Shown here one piece after another: positions 25,912 through 29,055 of a stretch of 64,000 nt of DNA. Position numbers and translations under genes: made by a program. The stretch comes from Haladaptatus caseinilyticus. Its GTDB lineage: Archaea > Halobacteriota > Halobacteria > Halobacteriales > Haladaptataceae. The DNA lies in contig NZ_CP111036.1 in the NCBI RefSeq assembly GCF_026248685.1, positions 1,054,001-1,118,000 of the forward strand. Direction: 5' to 3'. Each line of letters begins with the position of its first letter. Position 1 is the stretch's first letter. The notes under the pieces are model-generated. The model had not been told where the DNA came from, searched no databases, and saw only the letters and a program-made list of their open reading frames with translations.

Positions 25912-26012
25912 AATCAATTCCTTTCCGGGTAGGGGGTAAACGTTTTCGAAACAGTCGACAATGCACGAACAGTACTAATCGATTATCTTACTCGTTTCGT
26001 CGGGTCGTGGAG

Positions 26013-27140
26013 TTATTCGTCGTCGAAATCGACGATATCCTCATCGGGGAGCGTAATGAGGTTCTCGCGGCCGATTCGAAGTTTATCCACCCGGTTTTCC
26101 TTGTCCATCGCCGAGAGAAGCTGTGACACCTTAGCGTTCGACCAATTCGTTTCAGTGACTATTTTCGCCTGTTTCATTCGCCCACCGTTCCGTTTCAGCA
26201 GGTGTTCGACGCGTTCCTCGTCCGACAGCAGTTCGACGTTGGGTTCGTCGTTCTCCGACGCAGAACCGTCCCCGATAGCGGAAGCCGAGTCCGCTTCCTC
26301 CGCTGCAACGGGCGGTTCTTGTCGGGGGTCGTCTACCGATTTATCCTCGCGCCGTTGCATCAAGACGTACACTCCCACAGCCCCAGTGCTAACGACGAGC
26401 AACAAGAGGAAGACGTTCGTCGCTGAGAGGATCGATTTCGGACCGTTGCCTCCCGTTTTCGTGTATGTGACGTCGATTCTTTCGGTATCGGTATTTAGCG
26501 CCTTCGGCCCCTCTATCGTTATCGTCGCGTTGCTGTGACCGAAGTTTGGTGAGTTCTGGATTCGATAGCCGGTCGGCCCTTCGATGATCAGTCGCTGGTC
26601 GGCAGTGAGCGAACCGAGCCACGTCGATGTGCCGTCATCGAGTAAAAACGCATCACCGAGAATTATTTTGTCACCCTTGACCTGCGTGAAATTCGTCCAG
26701 ACGAACGTGAGCGACAGCGTGTGAGTCGTGTTCCCGGGCGTGTATTTCCGTTCCGAATCGAGAATTTTCATCTCGCGGCCCGTCTCCGATTCCACCTTCC
26801 GAGCGATTCGAATGAACACGTCTTTGGAGGGACCGATGGCCCCGCCGCTGTTTTCGAAATCCCTCCCGAGCTCTTTGAACGCCGCTGTTTCGTTCTCGTT
26901 TTGCGTCGTGAACACCATCGAAACATTCCACCGAGCGTCACCGTCAGGCTGTGGTGTGATACGAATCGTCGTTCCGTTTGCCGTTTCGTTCGCTGCAGAC
27001 GGGTTCACAGCGGCGCTCTCGACGCCGGGCGAATCACCGACGACAGCCGAGGACGCCTGCCGCGTGTCACCTGCAACAACCGCGGAACCCACGACGAGGA
27101 GGGTAAGGAAGACCACGAGGAGGGCGGAATGTGACCGCAT
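26013..27140 (-). CDS. Membrane-anchored winged-helix protein with extracellular domain
   Basis: This 375-residue protein starts MRSHSALLVVFLTLLVVGSA, an N-terminal signal segment. It continues with an external beta-rich domain (about residues 25-245, with several N-x-S/T sites), then one transmembrane helix (NVFLLLLVVSTGAVGVYVLM, about residues 250-272) and a cytoplasmic tail. The tail has an acidic Pro/Ala/Glu linker and a winged helix (DEERVEHLLKRNGGRMKQAK..., about residues 300-365). This is the layout of a one-component membrane regulator. A TATA-like GTATTTTC (minus strand, 27162-27169) sits about 25 bases before the ATG. It is divergent from the surface-protein/pilin pair. Confidence 0.75.
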   Translation of the reverse strand: MRSHSALLVVFLTLLVVGSAVVAGDTRQASSAVVGDSPGVESAAVNPSAANETANGTTIRITPQPDGDARWNVSMVFTTQNENETAAFKELGRDFENSGGAIGPSKDVFIRIARKVESETGREMKILDSERKYTPGNTTHTLSLTFVWTNFTQVKGDKIILGDAFLLDDGTSTWLGSLTADQRLIIEGPTGYRIQNSPNFGHSNATITIEGPKALNTDTERIDVTYTKTGGNGPKSILSATNVFLLLLVVSTGAVGVYVLMQRREDKSVDDPRQEPPVAAEEADSASAIGDGSASENDEPNVELLSDEERVEHLLKRNGGRMKQAKIVTETNWSNAKVSQLLSAMDKENRVDKLRIGRENLITLPDEDIVDFDDE

Positions 27141-27262
27141 ACCCTTGTGTGGTAAATCGGGAAAGAAAATACTTTCCATCCACGCGATAAAACATCAGTG
27201 GCAGATCTGAATGATTTCTCGCTCGTTTGCCTATTCAAACAACTGCCTCGGAATCCCGTATG

Positions 27263-27270
27263 TATTTTAA
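27263..27270 (+). promoter_or_regulatory. TATA box of the surface protein / pilin operon
   Basis: TATTTTAA lies 28 bases before the ATG at 27295. The 154-base divergent region contains this and the promoter of the membrane-anchored regulator. Confidence 0.55.
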
Positions 27271-27294
27271 CGAGGACGTGCGTACAGCATTCAC

Positions 27295-28563
27295 ATGACC
27301 CGGGTTCTTCCCGTCGTATTGGCGGTTCTCCTCGCCCTCGCCCCTCCCGCAGTTGCCTTCGAAACTGGGTCCACGACATCGATGTCCGCGGAAACGGACG
27401 TAGAAGAGATAGTAGAGCCACCGGGGTTCAACAATACGACATCGCAGTTGAGCCTTGGAACCCCGAACCGCGCTGAAACCAGTATGGCGTCGATGAGCCT
27501 CAGTGCCAGCCTGGAGATGGACAGGAACGAGGTACGGACACAGAAGCGGATGTACATACTCAACGAGAGGCTATCAAATGCGGAAAATAACCAGGTCAAA
27601 GAACAAGCGCTTCGACGATATCGATACGAAATCGGATCACAACTTTCGTCGTTGAAATACACGGAGCGAAATATCCGGAAGAAATTCAACGATGGGAGAT
27701 TGTCAGGTTCGGAGTACGTCAGACGGCTCGCAGTCCTCCATGCGAGAGCGGAGAACATCGACCAGTCGATAGCCCACATGAAGGCTCGCGGGAGCAACGT
27801 TCCACGATTTACACCGGAAGTGTGGACACTTCGGGGGAATCTCATTCCGTTACAGGGGAAGGTTCGACAGTATGCCGTCAACCAATATCGGGGAGAGTCG
27901 GAGCCACGGATGATCTACGTAGCGACGACGAAAACTGGCGTCGCTCTCTCGACGGTACACGGAAATCAGTACGTTCGAGAAGCGTATCTTGGTAAAAACA
28001 AGGACACGAATGGGACGAACCAGTTGCTAGGTCAAAAGGCGCAGAACATCACCGCAAAACAGTACCCGTGGGCGAAGAATCACAGCAATGGCGAACTGAG
28101 TACGAACTCCAGATATGGGACAGGGATATTCATGACGACCCTGCCGCATGAGCATGGGGTAATCAAGACAGTTCTCGATGGGAGAACGGAGAAAATATTC
28201 AGGGAGACACAGTTCAAATCCCTTACCGGAGCTACCCACATTCCATACGGGCACCCCATTCGAAACGAAACGGCAAATCTCGAACTCACCGTCAACCGAA
28301 CGTACGTCGGTGGACCGCTCCGAGTCAACGTGACCGACGGTAACGGAAAACCCGTTACCGGTCAAATATCGATCGGAGAAACCGAAATCGGAACTGCCGG
28401 AAGCGATGGAGTGCTCTGGACGATCGCCCCAAGACGGACAGTGACCGTTTCTGCACGCTACGAATCGACGACGGTCAATGCAACCTTCACTCCGTACGGA
28501 TTGGCTCGGTCGAATACGACAACTGGGCCGCCACAATCGATACCCATCCCATCCGAACGTTGA
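27295..28563 (+). CDS. Secreted surface protein, unknown function
   Basis: This 422-residue protein has a Sec-type signal peptide (MTRVLPVVLAVLLALAPPAV), a helical region rich in Arg, Glu and Asn (about residues 70-170) and a C-terminal Ig-like beta domain (VNRTYVGGPLRVNVTDGNGK..., about residues 345-400). There are many N-x-S/T sequons. No C-terminal anchor is seen. Similar proteins occur beside pilin genes in other haloarchaea in my recollection. It is followed after 27 bases by the pilin gene, so the two are probably one operon. Confidence 0.72.
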   Translation: MTRVLPVVLAVLLALAPPAVAFETGSTTSMSAETDVEEIVEPPGFNNTTSQLSLGTPNRAETSMASMSLSASLEMDRNEVRTQKRMYILNERLSNAENNQVKEQALRRYRYEIGSQLSSLKYTERNIRKKFNDGRLSGSEYVRRLAVLHARAENIDQSIAHMKARGSNVPRFTPEVWTLRGNLIPLQGKVRQYAVNQYRGESEPRMIYVATTKTGVALSTVHGNQYVREAYLGKNKDTNGTNQLLGQKAQNITAKQYPWAKNHSNGELSTNSRYGTGIFMTTLPHEHGVIKTVLDGRTEKIFRETQFKSLTGATHIPYGHPIRNETANLELTVNRTYVGGPLRVNVTDGNGKPVTGQISIGETEIGTAGSDGVLWTIAPRRTVTVSARYESTTVNATFTPYGLARSNTTTGPPQSIPIPSER

Positions 28564-28590
28564 AATACCGAGACGGGGCCATCTGGTGTC

Positions 28591-29055
28591 GTGTCGAATC
28601 GCGCCCTCTCTCCTGTCGTTGCAACAGTTCTGTTACTCGTCGTTACGCTCGTTCTCGCAGGTACAATTGGCGCAGTTACAGTCCAATCGACGTCGTTTCG
28701 AGAGCCAACACGGGTCGCAATCGACGTGTCCGCCGATGCTGCTGCTGACCGCCTGACGTTCGTTCATCAGGCTGGCGACTCGCTCACGGTCCAAACTCTC
28801 TCTATTCGTATTCGCGTAAACGGGACACCGCTCGAACACCAGCCGCCGGTCCCGTTCTTTTCGGCGAAGGGGTTCCGATCCGGTCCGACCGGACCGTTCA
28901 ACAGCGCAACAAATGAAACGTGGAGCCCGGGCGAGACGGCGAGTTTCGAAGTGGCAGGGACGAATGCACCACTGTTCGAGGCCGGGGATGAAATTGTCGT
29001 TCAAATAGCCGTGAGAAAAACGATCGTCGTAGAAGTAGAGACGACAGCTACGTAG
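28591..29055 (+). CDS. Archaeal type IV pilin (Pilin_N domain)
   Basis: The 154-residue protein starts with GTG and reads MSNRALSPVVATVLLLVVTL, the haloarchaeal pilin signature: a short positive leader, a processing site before SPVV, then a hydrophobic helix for pilus assembly. The remainder is a beta-rich globular head. It would be cleaved by a PilD/PibD-type peptidase and assembled or displayed on the surface. No pilB/pilC genes are adjacent, so it relies on machinery encoded elsewhere. Confidence 0.8.
   Translation: MSNRALSPVVATVLLLVVTLVLAGTIGAVTVQSTSFREPTRVAIDVSADAAADRLTFVHQAGDSLTVQTLSIRIRVNGTPLEHQPPVPFFSAKGFRSGPTGPFNSATNETWSPGETASFEVAGTNAPLFEAGDEIVVQIAVRKTIVVEVETTAT

Follow-up and report, generated by a model that had tools for sequence, protein, structure and literature searches.

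A predicted transmembrane regulator and a divergently encoded secreted protein form a candidate sensing module conserved among Halobacteria

A 64,000-nucleotide stretch of the Haladaptatus caseinilyticus genome (contig NZ_CP111036.1, positions 1,054,001 to 1,118,000; the whole stretch is referred to here as the window) was found to encode a predicted membrane-anchored transcription regulator divergent from a secreted protein, and both families were present in all 145 of the Halobacteria genomes sampled (58 genera; these genomes are related and do not count as independent observations). The best explanation of the comparative results, to which we assign a probability of roughly 0.55, is that the regulator and the secreted protein act together as a transmembrane sensing module of archaea. 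Surfaces, salt and neighbours all elicit responses in haloarchaea, but to our knowledge few haloarchaeal receptors that read the cell exterior have been recognised. A regulator that occurs in every sampled haloarchaeon, would join an exposed domain to a DNA-binding domain in one polypeptide and has as its partner a secreted glycoprotein that is easy to detect is a candidate receptor that can be tested genetically in the model organism Haloferax volcanii (HVO_0306/HVO_0307), and on this reading a function can be proposed for five Pfam families that lack a name, namely DUF7345, DUF7343, DUF7096, DUF7094 and DUF5667.

The locus consists of three genes lying between etfA/etfB, on the minus strand, and genes for a menG-like methyltransferase and the A-type ATP synthase. 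The open reading frames of the regulator, the secreted protein and a type IV pilin-like protein were confirmed with the same limits as in the original prediction (Table 1). As that prediction had also held, the regulator and secreted-protein genes are divergent across 154 bp (27141-27294), which is likewise the median intergenic length among the measured loci, and the secreted protein, described there as Ig-tailed, carries an Fn3_arc domain, with the pilin gene downstream, 27 bp away.

Table 1. Features of the regulator, secreted-protein and pilin genes, in window coordinates
Feature	Position	Strand	Basis
Regulator CDS, 375 aa, ATG at 27140, HVO_0306 orthologue	26013..27140	-	ORF, Pfam, AlphaFold2, PMC8241124
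Predicted signal peptide, residues 1-24 (approximate)	27069..27140	-	Sequence; model helix 4-18; orthologue predicted Sec SPI
Predicted DUF7345 ectodomain, residues 60-192 (fold to ~228)	26565..26963	-	Pfam PF24036 1.8e-40; AlphaFold2
Predicted transmembrane helix, residues 238-263	26352..26429	-	AlphaFold2 helix and hydrophobic sequence
Predicted DUF7343 cytoplasmic winged helix, residues 304-365	26046..26231	-	Pfam PF24034 4e-29; alignment; fold match
Core-promoter element GATGGAAAGTATTTT over regulator BRE/TATA, candidate autoregulatory site	27166..27180	-	Conservation; etfB control weakens operator reading
TATA-like element of secreted-protein gene, -32 to -25 from ATG	27263..27270	+	T-run at -31 to -27, 126 loci
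Secreted-partner CDS, 422 aa, HVO_0307 orthologue	27295..28563	+	Pfam, alignment, model; PMC8241124
Type IV pilin-like CDS, 154 aa, GTG start	28591..29055	+	PF07790, arch_flag_Nterm, alignment

The regulator matched both Pfam families well above the curated cut-offs, with 138.5 bits against 27.5 for DUF7345 and 100.7 bits against 27.6 for DUF7343, and the two domains occurred in the expected order around the transmembrane helix. An AlphaFold2 model built with 25 homologues began with an N-terminal helix, followed by an ectodomain modelled with confidence (about residues 56-228) that is rich in beta strands and includes two helices. The sole transmembrane candidate was a 26-residue helix, and after it came the winged helix (302-365), most of which had pLDDT values above 90. 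The linker between these two is long, variable, acidic and disordered, with low pLDDT at 266-296. The winged helix was the most conserved part of the protein, as 31 of the 39 columns that are invariant in the alignment fall within it, and had a MarR/ArsR-like fold, with Z scores of about 9 to 10.5 over some 60 residues (AbfR, MarR, CzrA, SmtB and others); MarR_2 and HTH_5 Pfam matches among regulator homologues were all below threshold. Comparison of the ectodomain and secreted-protein folds with the PDB yielded no convincing match, and a weak resemblance to LppM was the most that was seen. The regulators of the nearest named relatives were 70 to 72% identical to that of the window.

The secreted protein matched DUF7096 (4.1e-22), DUF7094 (6.7e-24) and Fn3_arc (1.9e-18), with a layout of a signal, a helical bundle (DUF7096) and two beta domains; there was no C-terminal transmembrane helix and no membrane anchor. 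In H. volcanii, HVO_0306 is an O-glycopeptide candidate assigned to the Sec pathway, and HVO_0307, also Sec, is an N-glycoprotein with 3 sites and 201 PSMs (PMC8241124). These orthologue glycopeptides support the predicted topology, and together with the domain and structure predictions they showed the architecture and the putative type I orientation of the regulator. With one transmembrane helix and a winged helix in a single polypeptide, the protein is a predicted transmembrane transcription regulator. The original description of a membrane one-component regulator with a signal segment, a beta-rich external domain, one transmembrane helix and a winged helix was thus borne out, the winged helix by profile search and the transmembrane helix by the model and hydrophobicity. 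In the literature collection searched, no experiment on the function of HVO_0306 and no paper under the DUF names of these proteins was found. A second DUF7096 protein of the genome that holds the window (L352, G000:C1:745027-745587) is encoded away from any DUF7345 gene, beside the gene for an ArsR-like soluble regulator.

The gene order was conserved throughout the class, far beyond what the original prediction had anticipated in calling for a synteny search. Where both family matches were listed, the two genes were divergent and adjacent in 132 of 134 genomes. A set of 140 loci, which were chosen from family matches and so describe gene order and not frequency, had one order. The regulator was present in 139 of these loci and the secreted protein in all 140, with menG in 136 and atp genes in more than 100, and a single-sequence search detected the pilin in 129. 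The H. volcanii genome has the same order as the window, with HTH and secreted-protein genes followed by HVO_0308, menG (HVO_0309; PMC8305020) and atpI (HVO_0311; PMC3828320). Because this order matches the window, HVO_0308 is deduced to be a pilin; no paper on HVO_0308 was found in the literature search. As menG and the atp genes are equally fixed, synteny at this primary locus proves no functional link by itself.

The protein encoded at the end of the three-gene set has the class III signal peptide and Pilin_N domain of an archaeal type IV pilin, as judged from sequence, with matches above cut-off to both Pilin_N (PF07790, 1.9e-11) and the NCBIfam model arch_flag_Nterm (TIGR02537). Its homologues form a coherent haloarchaeal family with mostly GTG starts predicted and a conserved QPPVPFFSAxGFxxGPTGPFNSA core, of which Pfam models only Pilin_N. 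The original prediction had regarded the three genes as an exact set and as a unit for pilus regulation, in which the regulator would sense the surface and directly switch the divergent secreted-protein/pilin operon, with pili as the output. The divergent arrangement, and an operon that in most families includes the pilin, fit this idea, and it is a reasonable one given that ArnR, like ArnR1 a membrane regulator of pilus-type promoters in Sulfolobus (PMC6396743), controls archaeal pili from the membrane. However, nine loci lacked the pilin, eight of which belong to Haloarcula as judged from the named contigs; the regulator, secreted protein and remaining genes were kept in them, and menG directly followed the secreted-protein gene. 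In two genomes the regulator was located elsewhere while the secreted protein, pilin, menG and atp genes stayed together. No pilin was seen beside the paralogous and out-of-class pairs described below, which keep a secreted partner, and over 126 loci a generic TATA box but no conserved operator was found ahead of the secreted-protein and pilin genes. Neither the exact set nor the pilus-regulating role was upheld by these results. The pilin is widespread but dispensable to the locus, and we propose that it is an accessory in the same operon in most haloarchaea. Overall, the comparative evidence points away from pilus control, which we regard as unlikely.

The claim of two leaderless-type promoters in the intergenic region held: TATA-like elements were found at leaderless spacing before both starts, conserved over 126 loci, and leaderless transcription itself stays a prediction for the two genes. 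Besides the TATA box, the secreted-protein gene is preceded by a conserved TA at -12/-11 (window ~27283), again over the 126 loci. At the regulator promoter, the class consensus, GATRGAAAGNGTTTT, covers the BRE and TATA box and starts about 40 to 45 nt upstream of the start codon. Exact GATRGAAAGNRTTTT was present in one copy each in 95 of the 145 genomes, in 94 cases at the regulator promoter, and the element had moved with the regulator in both genomes in which the regulator is separated. A similar sequence, GATGGGAAGGAATTT, is carried by the promoters of paralogues in one genus, Halorubrum by the named contigs. The etfB promoter (window 25912-25960, minus strand) was used as a control and had its own equally placed, conserved BRE/TATA 15-mer, TTYCGAAAANGTTTA, with 0 or 1 copy per genome and 20.9 bits versus 23.9 for the regulator element. 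As this 15-mer behaves alike, a private operator could not be argued from the once-per-genome occurrence of GATRGAAAGNRTTTT, and the element is best described as a core promoter that is strongly conserved. Control of the regulator gene by its own winged helix through this element is possible, and is offered only as a hypothesis because conserved core promoters behave alike.

Other interpretations of the element were rejected. An operator shared with the secreted-protein gene was inconsistent with a spacing that is fixed relative to the regulator start but ranges from 53 to 339 relative to the secreted-protein gene, and was further ruled out by the movement of the element with the regulator. 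A coding origin was excluded because the element lies 37-42 nt from the ATG at spacings that include every reading frame, and a regulon box because one-mismatch sites were barely above the control. Covariation between the element and the recognition helix (R before W with ACTTT) was confined to one family and hence confounded by descent. A second TATA-like element of the TGACGTTTTATC type was observed about 10 to 20 nt upstream of the regulator BRE/TATA in several families (window 27180-27205; loci L071, L089, L112 and others). An Rfam search produced no match.

The pairing of regulator and secreted protein recurred elsewhere. A second regulator group in the same genomes, with the recognition helix WTxAKTSQVV, lies beside DUF7096-like secreted proteins encoded on the same strand: by profile, the regulator came first in 10 of 20 loci and the partner first in 2, and pairing was detected by eye in 3 more that were cut at the edge of the compared stretch. 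Whole-genome family matches, several of the weaker ones below the curated cut-off, identified full-length paralogue pairs (for example in G015, G026, G009, G030, G013, G001, G007 and G006) and a further divergent regulator/DUF7096-like pair (G078, G068, G072 and G097). The paralogues thus occur in three layouts: on one strand with the regulator leading, on one strand with the partner leading, and as a second divergent pair. At one locus (L360), a DUF7345 protein with a transmembrane helix and without a winged helix adjoins a DUF7096-like protein, an arrangement that points to contact through the outside parts. Counting against a fixed pairing, the regulator is apart from the partner in the two genomes mentioned above, and the genome of the window has a second DUF7345 gene without a DUF7096 neighbour. 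This gene, a DUF7345-DUF7343 paralogue of a third regulator group, lies near queuosine-type genes (L318, G000:C1:2149000-2151800).

DUF7345-TM-DUF7343 regulators were also detected outside Halobacteria, in other genomes of the phylum. There, a secreted DUF5667 protein was encoded immediately upstream of the regulator, in the same orientation, in 12 of 17 testable genomes (8 genera), and the 12 genomes with the pair each had only one or two DUF5667 genes. The other five lacked a directly upstream DUF5667 gene, although in one of them such a gene lay on the opposite strand at a distance of about 1.6 kb. No DUF5667 genes were found in six Halobacteria tested. One non-haloarchaeal genome contained two tandem pairs of DUF5667 and DUF7345-regulator genes (L333, G188:C1:679000-689000). 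Homology between DUF7096 and DUF5667 was not detectable (hhalign probability 1.9%), and helical sequences can give weak matches. These findings provided evidence for a putative recurring unit of a regulator plus a secreted helical partner, the partner having been replaced or having diverged beyond recognition. The recurrent pairing suggests that archaea may have a general way of sensing their own surface. The broadest form of this proposal, a widespread archaeal outside-in module that is universal in haloarchaea and combines a reverse-topology membrane transcription factor with a secreted helical co-sensor, the partner being swapped (DUF7096/DUF5667) and the regulator kept, is tentative and falls a little short of an even chance.

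In the sensing module as we envisage it, the single transmembrane helix would anchor the regulator with DUF7345 outside and the DUF7343 winged helix in the cytoplasm on its variable acidic linker, where the winged helix would bind DNA while tethered. On the outside, the ectodomain would be met by the secreted helical protein, which is DUF7096 in haloarchaea and DUF5667 in other archaea, acting as a ligand, co-sensor or inhibitor. A change at the surface, in the envelope, S-layer or salt state, could then alter ectodomain pairing and hence the DNA-binding state of the winged helix, so that the exposed DUF7345, alone or partner-bound, would report the surface condition through one helix. The regulator would probably control its own expression and perhaps also that of the partner operon. 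Physical contact, DNA targets, autoregulation and the signal are inferred parts of this model.

The long, variable and disordered linker, and the persistence of the regulator away from the partner and pilin in two genomes, would also suit an envelope-stress switch, in which surface damage or misfolded protein leads to cleavage of the regulator near the membrane, releasing the linker and winged helix in soluble form to act on remote targets, with the secreted partner as guard or target. Nevertheless, a protease site was not found, many transmembrane regulators function without being cleaved and a remote role is less likely because pairing with the partner is so frequent, and we consider such a switch improbable. 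Mere conservation of a stable haloarchaeal gene order around the ATP synthase operon, with no functional link, accords with the fixed menG and atp genes but was given little weight, as the pair is found again at other loci and in different layouts, and outside the class the regulator has another secreted partner.

The proposed sensing module was compared with known membrane regulators. In ToxR/ToxS and VtrA/VtrC the winged helix is cytoplasmic, N-terminal and of the OmpR type, and the partner is anchored in the membrane, whereas the predicted topology here is reversed and the partner secreted. The winged helix of the present regulator is C-terminal, after the transmembrane helix, and no OmpR-type Pfam match was obtained, so that the protein falls outside the ToxR/CadC-like group. 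Common to these systems and the present one is a membrane DNA-binding protein with a partner gene next to its own; in ToxR/ToxS and VtrA/VtrC the partner acts on the outside domain (PMC9214523), and here it is proposed to do so. ArnR and ArnR1 of Sulfolobus acidocaldarius are likewise archaeal membrane one-component regulators and are tied to type IV pilus-like structures; ArnR has an N-terminal HTH, a HAMP and sensing domain and two C-terminal transmembrane helices (PMC6396743). The regulator described here lacks that arrangement and falls outside the ArnR family, having a single transmembrane helix, with a domain on the outside and the winged helix at the C terminus, and with pili at most a hypothetical target. 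The orthologues of the window's regulator and secreted protein, HVO_0306 and HVO_0307, were detected as glycoproteins in a study whose entry for HVO_0306 reads probable transmembrane glycoprotein/HTH protein and whose entry for HVO_0307 reads conserved hypothetical protein (PMC8241124). A further known class is that of the transmembrane transcription regulators (TTRs), in which a transmembrane region and a DNA-binding domain are likewise combined in one protein and single-pass forms are commonest (PMC10269533); the present regulator differs in its predicted type I order of signal peptide, ectodomain, transmembrane helix and C-terminal winged helix, in its Pfam DUF domains and in its association with the gene for a secreted partner.
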